64,000 nt of DNA from Bacteroidota bacterium. GTDB taxonomy: Bacteria > Bacteroidota > Bacteroidia > Chitinophagales > Chitinophagaceae. The notes beneath the pieces are model-generated. The model saw nothing but the letters and a program-made list of their open reading frames with translations, was not told where the DNA came from and did not search any database. Where the stretch lies: the NCBI GenBank assembly GCA_016868775.1, contig VGFT01000007.1, forward strand, positions 1 to 64,000, in the 5' to 3' direction. A program made the position numbers and the translations under genes. This document shows positions 7,541-62,564 of this stretch, piece after piece; position 1 is the stretch's first letter; each line of letters begins with the position of its first letter.

Positions 7541-8108
7541 GACCCTCGCTTGTTTTTTTGGGCATCAGTGCGATGCGCAGATTTCTTTTTCCGTTTTGGA
7601 TGTGACTTTTTACCGTGGCAACGGCCATTCCTGTTTTTTCTGAGACCTGCCGATAACTCATTTTTTGCAGGTAGAATAAAGTTACGCATTCCCGCTGCCC
7701 TTCGGGAAGTGTCGTCAACGCCTCGGAAAGATGATTCAGACTCTGTTCTTTTTCATTCCAGTATTCCTGGTCCACCGCGGCGTTGCCCTCCAGTGGCAGT
7801 TGATCCGCCGGTTGCGGGGTTCCCCATTTTTTTTGTTCTCGCAATTGTATCAGGCAATGGTTCTTGGCGATTTGGTAGATCCATGACTTGAAGTAGGTTA
7901 CTTTGTATTTCTCCAGCTCTGGAATCACTTTTAGAAAAACTTGTTGAACCGCGTCGCGGGCTAACTCTTCCTTTCGCAGGTATTTCATCGATACGGCCAG
8001 CAGCATCAGGGTATAGCGTTGCAGCAATTGCCCCAGGCAATCGGTATCCTGTTCTGTCTGATATCGGTTCAGCAGCTCTTCATCCGTCAGGTTCTGGTAA
8101 CGCTCCAT
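7530..8108 (-). CDS. ECF-family RNA polymerase sigma factor
   Basis: 192 residues, the usual ECF length. Region 2 spans about residues 25-92 (DAVQQVFLKV, then YFKSWIYQIAKN), and region 4 about 127-180 with the LPEGQRECVTLFYLQKMSYR segment and the helix-turn-helix VSEKTGMAVATVKSHI. There is no region 3, as expected for ECF factors. It overlaps the putative anti-sigma gene by 11 bases and is convergent with the giant PKD gene. It starts 59 bases after the TauE/SafE-like gene on the same strand, so it may be read through from the phoH group or have its own promoter; no clear TAnnTTTG is seen in that gap. Regulon unknown. Confidence 0.93.
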   Translation of the reverse strand: MERYQNLTDEELLNRYQTEQDTDCLGQLLQRYTLMLLAVSMKYLRKEELARDAVQQVFLKVIPELEKYKVTYFKSWIYQIAKNHCLIQLREQKKWGTPQPADQLPLEGNAAVDQEYWNEKEQSLNHLSEALTTLPEGQRECVTLFYLQKMSYRQVSEKTGMAVATVKSHIQNGKRNLRIALMPKKTSEGHGR

Positions 8109-36170: not shown

Positions 36171-38153
36171 ATGTCATACTTTGAGTCCATGCCAAAGACC
36201 CTTCGCTGGGTACTGCAAGTGGGAGCGATCTTCCTGTTGCTCTTTACGCTTTTTCGATTTACCGTGTGGGTTGCATTTTGTCCCGTAGAATGGACTTTGT
36301 TGGATGCGGTGCCTTCTTTTGTGTGGGGATTCCGTTACGACCTAAGGTGGATAGCGGGTATGTTGCTGCCGGTGACGCTGCTCAGCATTCGGGCGAAGTG
36401 GTCGCCTTTTTATTCAAATTGGAACAAGCGGGTGTGGACGACTTACCTGGCGGTGGTCACCCTGATCGTTTTCTTTTTCTTCTCGGCCGGCTTTGGCAGT
36501 TTTTCTTACAACCAAACTCCTTTGGATGCAGGCGCAATGAATTTTGTGGAGGACTTTACCATCTCGCTAACCATGATCTGGGAAACCTATCCGTTGCTTT
36601 GGATGTTGGCGGGCTTGGGCATCGCGGTTTGGTTTCTGCGGTGGATGTATCACCGGGTGCATTGGCAGGTGGTTAGTCAAACCGACGGAAAGGGTATCTC
36701 GCATCGGCCAGCTTACTTCGTTTTAGCCAGTTTGTTTCTTGGGCTTTTGATACATGGTAGTTTATCAGTTCGTTCGCTTCGTCGGGACGATTGCTTTCAG
36801 TTGCCCAGCAGTTTTGCGGCGTATCTGGCCGTTAATCCGTTGCAAAATTTCGCCACTACCTGGCGGTTGCGTCAGTTGCCGGAGAAAGATATTCCCACGA
36901 TGCGCAGTGCTCTGCCGATCGTACGGCAGTGGATGGGGTTGGAAGATCCTCGTGTGGCGGGACTTCGACGAATGGTGGGTCCGCGTAGCGATGCCTGGGA
37001 GAGCAGGCCGAACCTGGTCCTAATCCAATGTGAATCGTTCAGCATGTACAAAAGCTCGATGAGTGGAAATCCGCTGAACACCACGCCTTTTTTTGATTCG
37101 TTATCGCGTCAAGGCGTCTTCTTTGATCATTGCTTTGCGCCCCATTTTTCTACGGCTCGGGCTTTATTCGGGATCCTGACGGGCATTCCCGATGTACAGC
37201 TGTTCCGTTTCTCCTCTCGAAACCCGGCTTCCGTTTCACAACGCACGTTGATCAATCAGTTGGAGGGGTATAGTAAACATTATTTTCTATCGGGAAGTCC
37301 CGAGTTCAACAATTTTGAGGGCATCCTCTCCAACATCCGCGGGTTACAAATGCATACGGGTGATTTTTTCAAGGGCGATAAATTGAATGTGTGGGGGGTC
37401 AGTGATCGGGATCTTCTGTTGCAGTCGCTGGCCGAGATGCGAAAACAAAAAGATCCTTTTTTCGCCTACATCCAAACGGCCGGCAATCATCGTCCCTTCC
37501 AAAAAAGTATTCCAGTTGGCGATAGCAGTTTTCGTCGGATCGAGTATCCGACCGATACCTTGTTGAAATACGGATTTGAGTCGAACGAGGAACTGAATGC
37601 CTTCCGGTATTCGGATCATGCGATCCGTGCTTTTGTGGAAGCGGCGCGTCAGGAGCCTTTTTTTTCGAACACGCTTTTTGTTTTCATTGGTGATCACGGA
37701 GTGGCAGGCAATGCGCGGGCATTGTATCCGTCGTTGTGGACCGATCAGCGACTCACCGACCAACATGTTCCGCTCTTGTTCTATGCGCCCTATTTACTGG
37801 CGCCGCAACGTCGTTCGGAGGTCGTATCCCAGATCGATGTACTGCCTACCGTTTTTGGTCGGTTGAATCAATCGTTCGAACATTTCACGCTGGGTCGCGA
37901 CCTATTGGCTCCGGATAAAAAAAATCATTATGCTTTTTTGACCAATACCGCCGATCGGATCGGGATGGTTACCAACGACCTTTATTTTTCCCGTAATATT
38001 TACTCAGGCGAAGAGTTGTTGTTGCCGTTGCGGCCATCGGATGCCCGCATCACCATGCAGCGGCAGGATTCCCTTCGAAGGGAATTGTCCCGCATCACCC
38101 AAGCCTATGCGGATGTGGCTCGGTTTTTGTTGTTTCACAATAAGCCAAAATAA
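36171..38153 (+). CDS. LTA-synthase-like membrane sulfatase-fold transferase
   Basis: 660 residues from the ATG at 36171 (an in-frame TTG at 36162 is also possible). About five N-terminal membrane helices are followed by a periplasmic alkaline-phosphatase-fold domain: PNLVLIQCESFSMYKSSMSG with the metal-binding Glu, NTTPFFDSLSRQGVFFDHCF, HFSTARALFGILTGIPD with the candidate threonine nucleophile, TAGNHRPF, and FVFIGDHGVAG with the DH metal ligands. Such enzymes move phosphoglycerol or phosphoethanolamine onto glycans or lipids. Teichoic acids are not expected in Bacteroidota, so the acceptor is unknown. Confidence 0.88.
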   Translation: MSYFESMPKTLRWVLQVGAIFLLLFTLFRFTVWVAFCPVEWTLLDAVPSFVWGFRYDLRWIAGMLLPVTLLSIRAKWSPFYSNWNKRVWTTYLAVVTLIVFFFFSAGFGSFSYNQTPLDAGAMNFVEDFTISLTMIWETYPLLWMLAGLGIAVWFLRWMYHRVHWQVVSQTDGKGISHRPAYFVLASLFLGLLIHGSLSVRSLRRDDCFQLPSSFAAYLAVNPLQNFATTWRLRQLPEKDIPTMRSALPIVRQWMGLEDPRVAGLRRMVGPRSDAWESRPNLVLIQCESFSMYKSSMSGNPLNTTPFFDSLSRQGVFFDHCFAPHFSTARALFGILTGIPDVQLFRFSSRNPASVSQRTLINQLEGYSKHYFLSGSPEFNNFEGILSNIRGLQMHTGDFFKGDKLNVWGVSDRDLLLQSLAEMRKQKDPFFAYIQTAGNHRPFQKSIPVGDSSFRRIEYPTDTLLKYGFESNEELNAFRYSDHAIRAFVEAARQEPFFSNTLFVFIGDHGVAGNARALYPSLWTDQRLTDQHVPLLFYAPYLLAPQRRSEVVSQIDVLPTVFGRLNQSFEHFTLGRDLLAPDKKNHYAFLTNTADRIGMVTNDLYFSRNIYSGEELLLPLRPSDARITMQRQDSLRRELSRITQAYADVARFLLFHNKPK

Positions 38154-59596: not shown

Positions 59597-61060
59597 TCAA
59601 TCGTACAGAAAAACGGGCGTGTACCGGCGTTTAATAAAAGTAGTGTCGTATAACTGCTCCAGTACGTGGGGAAACACGTTGTGTACCTGAACCGAGTCGG
59701 GCAATATATTTTTGAGCCCTTTCACAAATAGGATCGTATTGAATTCAATGCCATCGGGCGAAGGGGTGCGCATGTTTTTCCAACCGTGATCGCTTATGAC
59801 GATAAAAATCGTCTCTTCATTGTTTTTCATCATGGCTTTTAGCATTTCCAGCAGCCGATGGTTAGTGTATTTCAGGTAGCTCAGATAGGCTGCTTTGTTA
59901 GAGGAATTCAGCGCTGTTTCCACGTCCACCTCCTGGCTTTCTTCGTTCAGTAAGTATGGGTCATGTGGCAGGAAGAGGTGTATGTAATGAAAATCAGGCT
60001 CGGCGGAGTTGTTTACAACCTTCTCTGTCTGAGTACGCAGAAAATCGTTCTGCAATCGGATCATTTTTCGCTGAAATGTTTTTTTACTCTGGCCAAACAG
60101 ATTTTTTGTATAAAGGTGGTAGGCGAGATCCCGATAAATCGTTTGAGAGGTATTAAAATGATGAAGTCGCTCTGCCCCCACGATGTGTAGGTGAAAAAGA
60201 TCCTCGAAAGGAGGCTGGTCGTTAAAAGGAAAGATGGAGGCATTGTGGATTTTGTAGCCATTGGTCTGTAAGGAGGCGGTCCATATATTTCTGTTGATGT
60301 GTTGGATCCCCTTTCGCCAGCTTGCCAGATTGGACACATCGGTGCTGAGCAGCTCCAGGGGTTGCATGTCAAAGAGCGAAGCCATCGAAAAGATAGTCAG
60401 GTTGTATAAACTACCCGCTTGGTCGACCTCCTGAAATCCGATCGATTTCATTTTTTCTGTAAAATCGCTGTTATCAAATTGGAAAAACGACCGAAGGGAG
60501 GAGGTTCCGGCATATTCGTCGAGTAGCAAAAGCACGATATCGGGTTTCTTTTTGAGTTCCCGAAAGCTTGGTGTATCGGTTGGCGTTGACGCACTTTTCT
60601 GCTGCCGCAGAAGTTGACTCACAGACACCGGAATCATCGCGAGGGAAAATACTGTGATCAACTTTACAAAGCGGTAGCGGGGTTTGCGGATTGAACCATA
60701 TACAATGATCAGAAGAAGAAGTAGCGGTATCGGGAGGAGCAGTGTATAGCTCGACCAAAAACTTTCTCCAATCAGGGATTTGAAGGATTTGTGAAGGGGA
60801 CTAATATAAAATTCGATCAGCAGCAAGATCAGTATGATGGAATTTGGTCTTGTCCAATTGGAGAAAAAATATCTAAGTCCCAAGGCCAACACCATGCCGC
60901 CCCCACCATAAAGCAGGATCTCCATCAGCAGATCCGTTTCCGGAATGGTCGGGTAGTGGTTGGAATAAATAGCGAATAGCTGGGCAAAAACCAGTAGGGG
61001 GATGGGCCAGGGTCCGGATTCGGATATTTTTTTTACCGACTTTTTTATTTTTTCGAACAT
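59597..61060 (-). CDS. Membrane sulfatase-fold enzyme of the 54-aa/methyltransferase cassette
   Basis: 487 residues. Four to five N-terminal membrane helices (to about residue 155), then an alkaline-phosphatase-fold domain: KKKPDIVLLLLDEYAGTSSL with the metal-binding Asp/Glu, AGSLYNLTIFSMASLFDMQP with candidate Ser/Thr nucleophiles, FHYIHLFLPHDPYLL, and IFIVISDHGWKNMRTPSPDG with DH metal ligands. It could be a sulfatase, phosphodiesterase or phosphoglycerol/phosphoethanolamine-type transferase. The start overlaps the end of the kinase-like/methyltransferase gene by 16 bases, pointing to coordinated production. Convergent with porQ. Confidence 0.85.
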   Translation of the reverse strand: MFEKIKKSVKKISESGPWPIPLLVFAQLFAIYSNHYPTIPETDLLMEILLYGGGGMVLALGLRYFFSNWTRPNSIILILLLIEFYISPLHKSFKSLIGESFWSSYTLLLPIPLLLLLIIVYGSIRKPRYRFVKLITVFSLAMIPVSVSQLLRQQKSASTPTDTPSFRELKKKPDIVLLLLDEYAGTSSLRSFFQFDNSDFTEKMKSIGFQEVDQAGSLYNLTIFSMASLFDMQPLELLSTDVSNLASWRKGIQHINRNIWTASLQTNGYKIHNASIFPFNDQPPFEDLFHLHIVGAERLHHFNTSQTIYRDLAYHLYTKNLFGQSKKTFQRKMIRLQNDFLRTQTEKVVNNSAEPDFHYIHLFLPHDPYLLNEESQEVDVETALNSSNKAAYLSYLKYTNHRLLEMLKAMMKNNEETIFIVISDHGWKNMRTPSPDGIEFNTILFVKGLKNILPDSVQVHNVFPHVLEQLYDTTFIKRRYTPVFLYD

Positions 61061-62403
61061 AGATACAGTCTTCTCGTGGAGTCAGTCAGGTTCGATTGGA
61101 ATCGGATGGTAAAAAGTTTCTGCAGTTCGGCTTCAAATGTAAGCTGGTCGACCGGACGTTTCGCTACAATATCTGGGTTAAAAAATTCCACAATCAACGG
61201 ATCGGCCGGATCGATGAATTCGATCCACAGGTGTCGGTTTGATAATTGATGCAGTAGGTTCAACACATCCGTAAGGGGGATGTTGTTTCGATACGTGAGG
61301 TGATGAAGCAGTCCCAGACAGAGCACCAGATCAGAACGGATGGAGGGAATCCGGTTAGGGTCTTGACCGGCCGGTAAAAGTTCTTCAATATTCAGACAGA
61401 AGGTGGTGCAGTTTTTGTGTTGGGCCTGAAGATTTCTGAGGTAAAGTCGGTTTAAGGTCTGCGAATCCGACTCGAGCTGAATTATCTTTCGCTCATCCCG
61501 TTGGAGCGTTTGTGAGTAGACGCCCGTGTTTGAGCCAAGGTCTACTATTGAATTCACTTGCGGCAGCTGATCCGTTTCTTGTTTGATCAAGTTCAATTTA
61601 TGCCGGGAGTATTCTCCTCTGTCCTGAACGTCGTTTTCATAGTTGATCCATTCGGAGTGATTCGGTGCGGCCCGACATTTTTCCGTGGCTAACTGCAAGC
61701 TCCGCAGCAGGTTTTTCATTTTGGGCGCGGAGAAAGTCGGTTGATGCCAATCGGAGCTTTTGCGGGTGATGAATTGACGTGCGTTCAGGTGAATGTGTAA
61801 TAGCCAGTGCAGATACAATTTAGATCGGAGGGGCAAGAGTTTTCGTCCGGTATTCAGCGGGAGGCCATTCGGCCAGGCGCGGAGCAACTGGGGACTTTCC
61901 GCGCCGAGATAATTTCCGGTTACCAAGGGTAGCAAAAACGATTCGCAATATTGCCGATAGGCTACCCAGGGTTTTTCGGTTTCCCAATGCCCCAGGGAAA
62001 GCGTGTCGATCAGAATGGGAGCCGATCCGATGAATTGTATGTTGGATGGATGAGCATCTTTCAAACTCATGCCATATTCCAGAGATATTTGTTGAATCTT
62101 CAGGGTAAGCAATGCAGCCTGTTTCAGCATGTCATAGGTCCAATGCCATGGAGCCATGATGGGATGTATTCGCTGCGGCTTAATGACCAGAAAGGTGTCG
62201 GCCGAATTGGGTCTTTCTACTACTTCATGCGGTATCAGCAGGTTTTGTTGAACCAGCCGATCATACAACCCCGACTGCATGAGTGTTTGGTAGGCAGATC
62301 GGTGAAGTGGGTGTATCGACCGGTGAAGGATGCCGTCTTTTTCAAAAACAAATCCGGCCGGATCCCGGTAAGAGGCCGGGTGTCGGGTAGGAGGGGCATT
62401 CAT
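61045..62403 (-). CDS. Kinase-like domain fused to a SAM-dependent methyltransferase
   Basis: 452 residues. The N-terminal half has the stretch GMSLKDAHPSNIQF...ILIDTLSL (Asp116, Asn121, Asp133), which resembles the catalytic and metal-binding loops of aminoglycoside-phosphotransferase-like kinases (HGDxxxxN...D), though His-Gly is replaced by Leu-Lys. The C-terminal half is a class I methyltransferase with motif I NSIVDLGSNTGVYSQTL (about 285-300) and SDLVLCLGLLHHLTY. NoeA-like proteins of rhizobia have, as I recall, a similar layout. The start overlaps the stop of the 54-residue protein (ATGA). Substrate unknown. Confidence 0.85.
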   Translation of the reverse strand: MNAPPTRHPASYRDPAGFVFEKDGILHRSIHPLHRSAYQTLMQSGLYDRLVQQNLLIPHEVVERPNSADTFLVIKPQRIHPIMAPWHWTYDMLKQAALLTLKIQQISLEYGMSLKDAHPSNIQFIGSAPILIDTLSLGHWETEKPWVAYRQYCESFLLPLVTGNYLGAESPQLLRAWPNGLPLNTGRKLLPLRSKLYLHWLLHIHLNARQFITRKSSDWHQPTFSAPKMKNLLRSLQLATEKCRAAPNHSEWINYENDVQDRGEYSRHKLNLIKQETDQLPQVNSIVDLGSNTGVYSQTLQRDERKIIQLESDSQTLNRLYLRNLQAQHKNCTTFCLNIEELLPAGQDPNRIPSIRSDLVLCLGLLHHLTYRNNIPLTDVLNLLHQLSNRHLWIEFIDPADPLIVEFFNPDIVAKRPVDQLTFEAELQKLFTIRFQSNLTDSTRRLYLCSKK

Positions 62404-62564
62404 GAGTCAGCCGAACGGTCTTTTTTACCCAGCATTCGGTAAAAAAAATTACGAATGACGTATAGCAGGTTCCGAAAATAGAATACCACTTTCAGGATCG
62501 AGGCGATGATGACTTGTGCCAGATAACTTCCATTGCCCGGATCGAGGTAGAGTAGGTAGATCAC
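62400..62564 (-). CDS. 54-residue membrane protein with LDPGNGS motif
   Basis: Starts at a GTG (62564) that overlaps the M42 peptidase stop as GTGA and ends in an ATGA overlap with the methyltransferase start. The protein reads VIYLLYLDPGNGSYLAQVII then a hydrophobic helix, an arginine/tyrosine amphipathic stretch and a charged tail (GKKDRSADS). The LDPG(T/S/N)GS segment before one membrane helix is a pattern I recall from small proteins next to similar methyltransferase and sulfatase genes. A longer frame to 62771 only re-reads the M42 gene. Function unknown, perhaps a membrane anchor or subunit of the cassette. Confidence 0.75.
   Translation of the reverse strand: MIYLLYLDPGNGSYLAQVIIASILKVVFYFRNLLYVIRNFFYRMLGKKDRSADS

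Follow-up and report, generated by a model that had tools for sequence, protein, structure and literature searches.

A NoeA–NoeB-type gene module with a small YxDPGxGS membrane protein in a Bacteroidota genome

We analysed a 64,000-nucleotide stretch of DNA from a Bacteroidota bacterium (contig VGFT01000007.1 of assembly GCA_016868775.1, positions 1 to 64,000; called the window throughout), which carries a trio of genes encoding a membrane protein of 54 amino acids (aa; the small gene), a kinase-methyltransferase (gene 2) and a membrane enzyme with an alkaline-phosphatase-superfamily domain (gene 3), preceded by a gene for an M42-family aminopeptidase (Table 1). All four genes lie on the minus strand in consecutive end-to-start overlaps: the stop codon of the M42 gene shares bases with the GTG start of the small gene in the sequence GTGA (62561–62564), the small gene and gene 2 overlap in ATGA (62400–62403), and genes 2 and 3 share 16 bases (61045–61060), exactly as described in the initial annotation of this DNA. 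The overlaps are not a local accident, because across 80 related loci the median gap is −4 between the small gene and gene 2 (64 of 75 measured pairs overlap) and 0 between genes 2 and 3 (29 of 63), figures that use the longest possible starts and therefore somewhat overstate the overlaps. These loci, each containing gene 2, are the best 80 of at least 560 confirmed relatives and lean towards close relatives; 53 are Bacteroidota-like and the remaining 27 form a list from other phyla, with phyla taken from record titles, some metagenome bins looking misassigned (L063, titled Williamsia, resembles Bacteroidota).

The cassette is almost certainly a complete NoeA–NoeB module with a small third component. 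On the symbiotic plasmids of Ensifer canadensis, Sinorhizobium meliloti ml47 and Rhizobium sp. T136, the gene order is nodL, small gene, noeA, noeB, so that the trio occurs there in the same order as in the window, with all three proteins homologous. The rhizobial small gene is a 216-base ‘hypothetical protein’ gene (71 aa, with the motif YLDPGTGS), and noeA and noeB themselves are sometimes represented by an unnamed equivalent or a sulfatase-like gene. In E. canadensis the small protein reads YLDPGTGSMLVQ... after a signal-peptide-like leader, and the same small open frame is present in S. meliloti 1021. The rhizobial protein matches seven sequences of the window's own family at E 5.5e-7, and we conclude from this sequence relationship that the nodL–noeA–noeB operon contains an unnamed member of the YxDPGxGS family. 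The rhizobial small gene overlaps noeA by 23 bases in E. canadensis and S. meliloti ml47 and by 14 in Rhizobium sp. T136. The two arrangements differ in that nodL stands upstream in place of the M42 gene, and in that the rhizobial small protein has the signal-peptide-like leader that the window protein lacks; identity between window and rhizobial proteins is about 25% for NoeA and 13% for NoeB.

Table 1. Positions in the window of the trio, of features within its products and of the overlapping upstream gene (SAM, S-adenosylmethionine).
Feature	Coordinates	Strand	Remarks
Small gene, 54-aa YxDPGxGS-family membrane protein, first of the trio	62564–62400	−	GTG start
YLDPGNGS motif, residues 6–13 of the small protein	62526–62549	−	41-row alignment
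Gene 2, NoeA-family kinase-methyltransferase, 452 aa	62403–61045	−	
Putative kinase catalytic loop and metal-binding Asp, gene 2 residues 114–133 (D116, N121, D133)	62005–62064	−	54/54 rows
SAM-binding motif, gene 2 methyltransferase domain, residues 286–296	61516–61548	−	D288, G290, N292 and G294 in 54/54 rows
H367–H368, gene 2 methyltransferase domain	61300–61305	−	Invariant in 54/54 rows
Gene 3, NoeB-family membrane enzyme with alkaline-phosphatase-superfamily (PF00884) domain, 487 aa	61060–59597	−	
Gene 3 membrane region, five model helices (residues 19–157)	60590–61006	−	Four clearly hydrophobic, the first weakly
T222, putative gene 3 nucleophile	60395–60397	−	Thr in 57, Ser in 2 of 59 rows
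D424–H425, putative gene 3 metal ligands	59786–59791	−	With D181, H361 and H366 complete the presumed active site
M42-family aminopeptidase gene, overlapping neighbour	63679–62561	−	

The rhizobial operon, in which noeA and noeB represent the module in its best-known form as nodulation genes of alfalfa bacteria, is known genetically, its chemistry is not; noeA and noeB were reportedly named in a 1995 paper as host-range genes whose chemistry is said to have stayed unsolved since. In the literature passages seen that name noeA and noeB, the small gene is not mentioned. A second related system comes from the 2022 Legionella kinome paper, which describes the kinase-methyltransferase, its conserved neighbours and the alkaline-phosphatase fold of NoeB (PMC9758233). 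There, Lani_1194 is described as homologous to NoeA, combining a kinase with a methyltransferase domain, and Lani_1195 has a predicted alkaline-phosphatase fold, so that Lani_1193–1194–1195 resembles the trio of the window in placing a kinase-methyltransferase beside an alkaline-phosphatase-fold protein; the neighbours of Lani_1194 are given there as conserved in 65% and 38% of 816 neighbourhoods, in that paper's own, different neighbourhood set. Lani_1193 may, as a guess, be the same small protein, and priority for the conservation of the neighbourhood may then lie with that study. The initial annotation knew of no characterised system with this make-up, a view that does not hold, since the trio is the noeA–noeB part of the rhizobial nodL operon and parts of it are described in PMC9758233. 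A search of open-licence full texts turned up no report of the near-complete co-occurrence of the small protein, of its likely topology, of its presence in the nod operon or of the pairing of its DPNTGG sister type (below).

The family assignment of gene 2 draws on full-length homology. A tblastn search against plasmids matched 65 records, 57 of them from Sinorhizobium, at 25–27% identity over 88–99% of the protein for the rhizobial plasmids, and the matching gene is annotated noeA in several. NoeA of E. canadensis, in turn, scores E 8e-108 (per 100,000 sequences) against a 53-sequence gene-2 profile built without NoeA, which identifies gene 2, as judged by homology, as a member of the NoeA kinase-methyltransferase family. 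Its N-terminal half is a putative kinase, an assignment that draws on motif spacing and on PMC9758233: the kinase-type residues R28, D116, N121 and D133 are invariant in all 54 aligned rows, with Arg (R28) in place of the catalytic Lys, and their roles were assigned by motif and spacing relative to Lani_1194. In the AlphaFold2 model (mean predicted local distance difference test score, pLDDT, 89.6; predicted template modelling score, pTM, 0.91), residues 248–452 adopt a class I methyltransferase fold C-terminal to the kinase half. Fold matches include NodS (Z 18.5, root-mean-square deviation, rmsd, 2.7 Å over 182 residues) and a methylphosphate capping enzyme (Z 18.1, rmsd 3.2 Å over 194 residues), which count as tied, as do all fold-search rows within Z 1 of each other.

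By sequence profile, the best PDB match of gene 2 is the methyltransferase of WbdD (E 7e-5), the E. coli O9a O-antigen enzyme that likewise combines a kinase and a class I methyltransferase in one chain; single-sequence PDB searches gave no relevant match. WbdD is laid out with the methyltransferase first and then the kinase. The match falls at residues 64–178 of the WbdD chain, whereas the methyltransferase of gene 2 occupies its C-terminal residues 248–452 of 452, and the kinase half of gene 2 shows no sequence match to WbdD. An identification of gene 2 as WbdD was rejected on this reversed domain order. PMC9758233, too, regards the NoeA-type and WbdD families as no more than remotely related.

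Gene 3 is placed by sequence models only in the Pfam Sulfatase family (PF00884; 31.3 bits, cut-off 25). NoeB matches a gene-3 profile built without NoeB at E 5e-12 per 100,000 sequences (best single domain 1.3e-6), and homology together with its position after noeA assigns gene 3 to the NoeB family. The structural model (pLDDT 88.4, pTM 0.86) shows five N-terminal helices long enough to span the membrane, and the charges of the loops between them fit an N-terminus inside and the domain outside if all five helices cross the membrane, so that the catalytic domain probably lies outside the cytoplasm. The fold resembles YejM, EptC, LtaP, MCR-1 and sulfatases (Z 17.5–19.8), with transferases, sulfatases and YejM tied in the search at only 10–15% identity by structure. 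EptA is known for a T-x-x-S nucleophile motif and a five-helix layout. Like EptA/EptC/MCR and LtaS/LtaP, gene 3 combines membrane helices with an alkaline-phosphatase-superfamily domain and conserved Thr, Asp and His residues, while identity to these enzymes by structure again stays in the 10–15% range. D181, H361, H366 and D424 are present in 59 of 59 aligned rows and H425 in 57, and a gene 3 with a lost active site was accordingly rejected. Two further observations concern this family. One genome (G391, that of L081) holds eight gene-3-family matches, six of them full length and one a broken copy in two pieces, none of which adjoins the NoeA-like gene of L081; and the window itself contains a second, stronger PF00884 match (125.7 bits) outside the cassette, at 37008–37865.

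The small protein, whose sequence starts VIYLLYLDPGNGSYLAQ..., belongs to a family defined in this analysis, the YxDPGxGS family of short proteins with the motif Y-x-D-P-G-x-G-S followed by a hydrophobic stretch and a basic tail. A comparison of the small gene with that of the nearest relative, L037, gives pS 0.32 and pN 0.05, a ratio of non-synonymous to synonymous change (dN/dS) of 0.13. All 41 sequences of a diverse alignment have Y6, G10 and Q17, and at least 90% of them keep D8, P9, G12 and S13. Because of this dN/dS and these conserved residues, comparative sequence evidence identifies the 54-aa frame as a real protein, and a spurious open reading frame was rejected; the absence of protein-level conservation, which the initial annotation had named as a possible weakness of its proposal, was thus not what we found. 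The family members tried gave no match to Pfam or NCBIfam models, and searches with the motif strings in open-licence full-text literature returned only unrelated papers.

The stretch after the motif carries a net positive charge in all 41 alignment rows. In the small proteins of the other-phyla loci, an AxA-type site stands directly before the invariant Tyr in 22 of 26, 20 of them with a hydrophobic leader; this rule is a simple scan of our own rather than SignalP, and under a looser definition 27 of 101 small proteins were positive. If such a leader were cleaved off before the Tyr, the motif would have to lie outside. None of the 51 Bacteroidota-like small proteins with the motif passes the rule, and the 21 Bacteroidota rows of the alignment have an N-terminal tail of 5–9 residues before the Tyr (17 in L064) with no cleavable signal. 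Our best reading of these sequences is that the motif segment probably faces outward.

Rather than co-occurring rarely, the families accompany one another. Within up to 8 kb of gene 2, the small gene is present at 76 of the 80 loci, gene 3 at 67 and both at 63. The four loci that lack the small gene are one with the motif present and the frame interrupted (L043), two whose contigs start at the gene (L059, L088) and one where no small gene was seen (L074). At L043, near position 7841, the small gene has an intact motif and an interrupted tail frame beside open gene-2 and gene-3 frames. Gene 3 lies about 2 kb upstream at L087, and a NoeB-like gene was found elsewhere in all 12 genomes tested in which gene 3 does not adjoin gene 2 (10 of the 13 loci without gene 3, plus L087 and G047; L057, L070 and L105, which end at a contig end, were left out). 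On two plasmids with NoeA-like genes (L119, Singulisphaera pSINAC01; L120, the Smac51 plasmid), the adjoining DPGxGS frame is missing from the listed features.

Three phylum samples, 644 genomes in all, gave the same picture. They comprise 247 Bacteroidota, 201 Chloroflexi-titled genomes (the phylum of L116) and 196 from the phylum of Methanoculleus, and only strong gene-2 matches were counted (7 of 56 matching genomes at E 5e-52 or better, 25 of 37, one of them, G508, interrupted, and 4 at E 1e-20 or better, respectively), with small-gene matches taken at E 1e-3. The other 49 Bacteroidota matches to gene 2 are weak, and those with printed positions fall in the C-terminal half. Strong gene 2 was present in 36 genomes, the small gene in 37 and both in 35: in 7, 6 and 6 Bacteroidota, in 25, 26 and 25 Chloroflexi, where the two genes lie within the same short locus in all 25, and in 4, 5 and 4 genomes of the Methanoculleus phylum, where all four shared pairs are adjacent (Fisher p 2e-11 and 5e-31 in two of the samples). 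The small gene without gene 2 was seen in G440, as the DPNTGG sister, and in G808, as a weak match. Of 149 genomes sampled at order level, seven carry the small gene and these same seven carry full-length gene 2, an eighth gene-2 match (G088) being weak and partial; gene 3 is present in those seven and, without gene 2, as a full copy in G009 and a fragment in G036. One further check found the small gene in 28 of 29 genomes, with a second copy in two of the 28. The small protein is thus the most constant neighbour, accompanying the module in nearly every genome found, and the module is widespread in several bacterial phyla and archaea. This co-occurrence supports the proposal of the initial annotation that the small membrane protein, the kinase-like/methyltransferase protein and the alkaline-phosphatase-fold membrane enzyme form one conserved unit.

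Within this unit, small-gene pairs point to a partner. At L087 and L239, a small gene is paired with a gene-3-type gene separately from gene 2, and at L055 an extra small-gene/gene-3 pair stands directly upstream of the small-gene/gene-2 pair. A sister type with the motif MYIDPNTGG precedes a PF01663 phosphodiesterase gene in all three cases seen (L235, L237, L238). These pairs suggest, in a small sample, that the direct partner of the small protein is the phosphatase-fold enzyme. In the three sister cases (L235:4513–6501, L237:4579–6572 and L238:4274–6271), the phosphodiesterase has about 605 aa, follows directly and has no adjoining kinase-methyltransferase; further along from the pair, L235 also holds a sulfotransferase-family gene and a sulfatase.

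In 44 of the 53 Bacteroidota-like loci, an M42 gene precedes the small gene by no more than 1.5 kb, with a gap of −4 or −1 in 32 of the 44; none was found in the 27 loci of other phyla. We rejected it as a member of the module on this distribution, and it is probably not part of the module's function. The window cassette is flanked by genes for a PorQ-like protein (195.6 bits, below the model cut-off of 220) and Lon, in a host genome of 2.03 Mb in ten contigs. Together with the relatives found, these flanking genes suggest a host within Chitinophagaceae or near that family.

What the module does can be stated less firmly. A pathway that phosphorylates, methylates and transfers a group onto a surface lipid or glycan, as first envisaged, is plausible and unproven; we favour, at a probability of roughly 0.37, a module that modifies a surface glycan or lipid by phosphorylation and phosphate methylation inside the cell and by processing outside. 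Among 111 flanking proteins at the 27 loci outside Bacteroidota, six are PF00534 glycosyltransferases, four are enzymes of nucleoside-diphosphate (NDP) sugars and four are O-antigen ligases, and genes of Wzy_C type or for polysaccharide flippases lie directly upstream in L066 (just below the Pfam cut-off), L097, L098 and L111. In such a scheme, gene 2 would phosphorylate a growing or lipid-linked glycan in the cytoplasm, and its methyltransferase domain would cap the phosphate with a methyl group, by analogy with WbdD acting on O-antigen. On the outer face, the Thr-nucleophile domain of gene 3 would then transfer or remove a phosphate-linked group on the exported molecule, a step for which EptA-like or LtaS-like enzymes may serve as a model. 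The small protein would be embedded in the membrane, its YxDPGxGS end on the outer side close to the active site of gene 3 and its basic tail on the cytoplasmic side, and could be a subunit with an activating or bridging role that connects gene 3 with gene 2.

Several points weigh against this proposal. The tally of flanking genes lacks a background control, some of the genes upstream (those for enolase, a trypsin/PDZ protease and a topoisomerase) are unrelated, and the Bacteroidota copies adjoin housekeeping genes (M42, Lon, PorQ-like) and no glycan cluster. Archaeal members argue against a role confined to lipopolysaccharide. The methyltransferase fold matches of gene 2 are so broad (996 of 1000 chains at Z ≥8) that phosphate methylation is not singled out, and methyltransferases fill its fold lists. 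As to topology, the Bacteroidota small proteins have no signal, and in the Chloroflexi sample only 5 of 25 genomes pass the signal-site rule, one with a clear AxA (this set and that of the 26 other-phyla proteins share one genome, L116); several proteins of the sample (L189–L201) have, with predicted starts, a longer hydrophobic stretch that ends in RR just ahead of the motif, and in others the N-terminal tail is short. Finally, G355 carries gene 2 but lacks the small gene, and the 14 kb around its gene 2 gave no match to gene 3.

The strongest competing explanation, to which we give about half the weight of the favoured one and which we regard as unlikely, is that the module acts on a small secreted signal molecule, decorating it as has been proposed for Nod factors, and that gene 3 is a later phosphatase of the same signal. 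PMC9758233 and PMC9048898 place NoeA and NoeB in Nod-factor modification and host range, and S. meliloti M162, a strain deficient in nodulation, has a truncated noeA (PMC4053727). The probable position of the gene 3 catalytic domain outside the cytoplasm, as modelled, speaks against it, as does the range of carriers, most of which (Bacteroidota, Chloroflexi, Patescibacteria, Methanoculleus) are not titled as legume symbionts, which makes it less likely that the module arose to act on Nod factors. These may be one substrate among others that was recruited later.

Alternatively, the small protein could itself be a substrate or covalent carrier, a motif Tyr, Ser or Thr or a new N-terminal amine taking a group from gene 3 and passing it to a surface acceptor, for which DltX in D-alanylation offers an analogy. 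Signal cleavage would leave the invariant Tyr as the mature N-terminus in many non-Bacteroidota members, and small genes pair with alkaline-phosphatase-superfamily enzymes without an adjoining kinase (L087, L235, L237, L238, L239). A free N-terminal Tyr cannot be universal, however, because the 21 Bacteroidota rows, with their 5–17 residues before the Tyr, and most of the Chloroflexi sample lack a clear cleavage site, and we judge this explanation improbable. Still less credible is a gene 3 that works, like the non-catalytic membrane regulator YejM/PbgA, in a trio sensing or controlling envelope synthesis: YejM does come first among the fold matches of gene 3 (Z 19.8), although EptC lies within 1 of it and counts as tied, but the presumed active-site residues are retained in 57 to 59 of 59 rows, unlike in a degenerate regulator. 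That the three genes share an operon by history only and do unrelated jobs is very improbable given their adjacency and co-occurrence across bacteria and archaea and the NoeB-like gene in 12 of 12 genomes without an adjacent one, even though gene 3 lies apart at some loci and extra small-gene/gene-3 pairs occur at L055 and L087.

Returning to the modification of a surface glycan or lipid, we tentatively extend the role of the small protein beyond this module. YxDPGxGS proteins would form an unrecognised class of small subunits or carriers that outward-facing alkaline-phosphatase-superfamily enzymes require. In the NoeA–NoeB module they would link such an enzyme to the cytoplasmic kinase-methyltransferase, and the MYIDPNTGG sister would serve PF01663 phosphodiesterases without the kinase.

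The window therefore holds another member of a known, little-understood module. The occurrence of NoeA and NoeB in a three-part module of several phyla and archaea makes a more general surface glycan or lipid a likelier substrate than Nod factors. If YxDPGxGS proteins do form such a class of subunits or carriers, the classical nodL–noeA–noeB nodulation operon would have an unrecognised functional gene, and the unnamed small gene merits inclusion in mutant and biochemical work on noeA and noeB.

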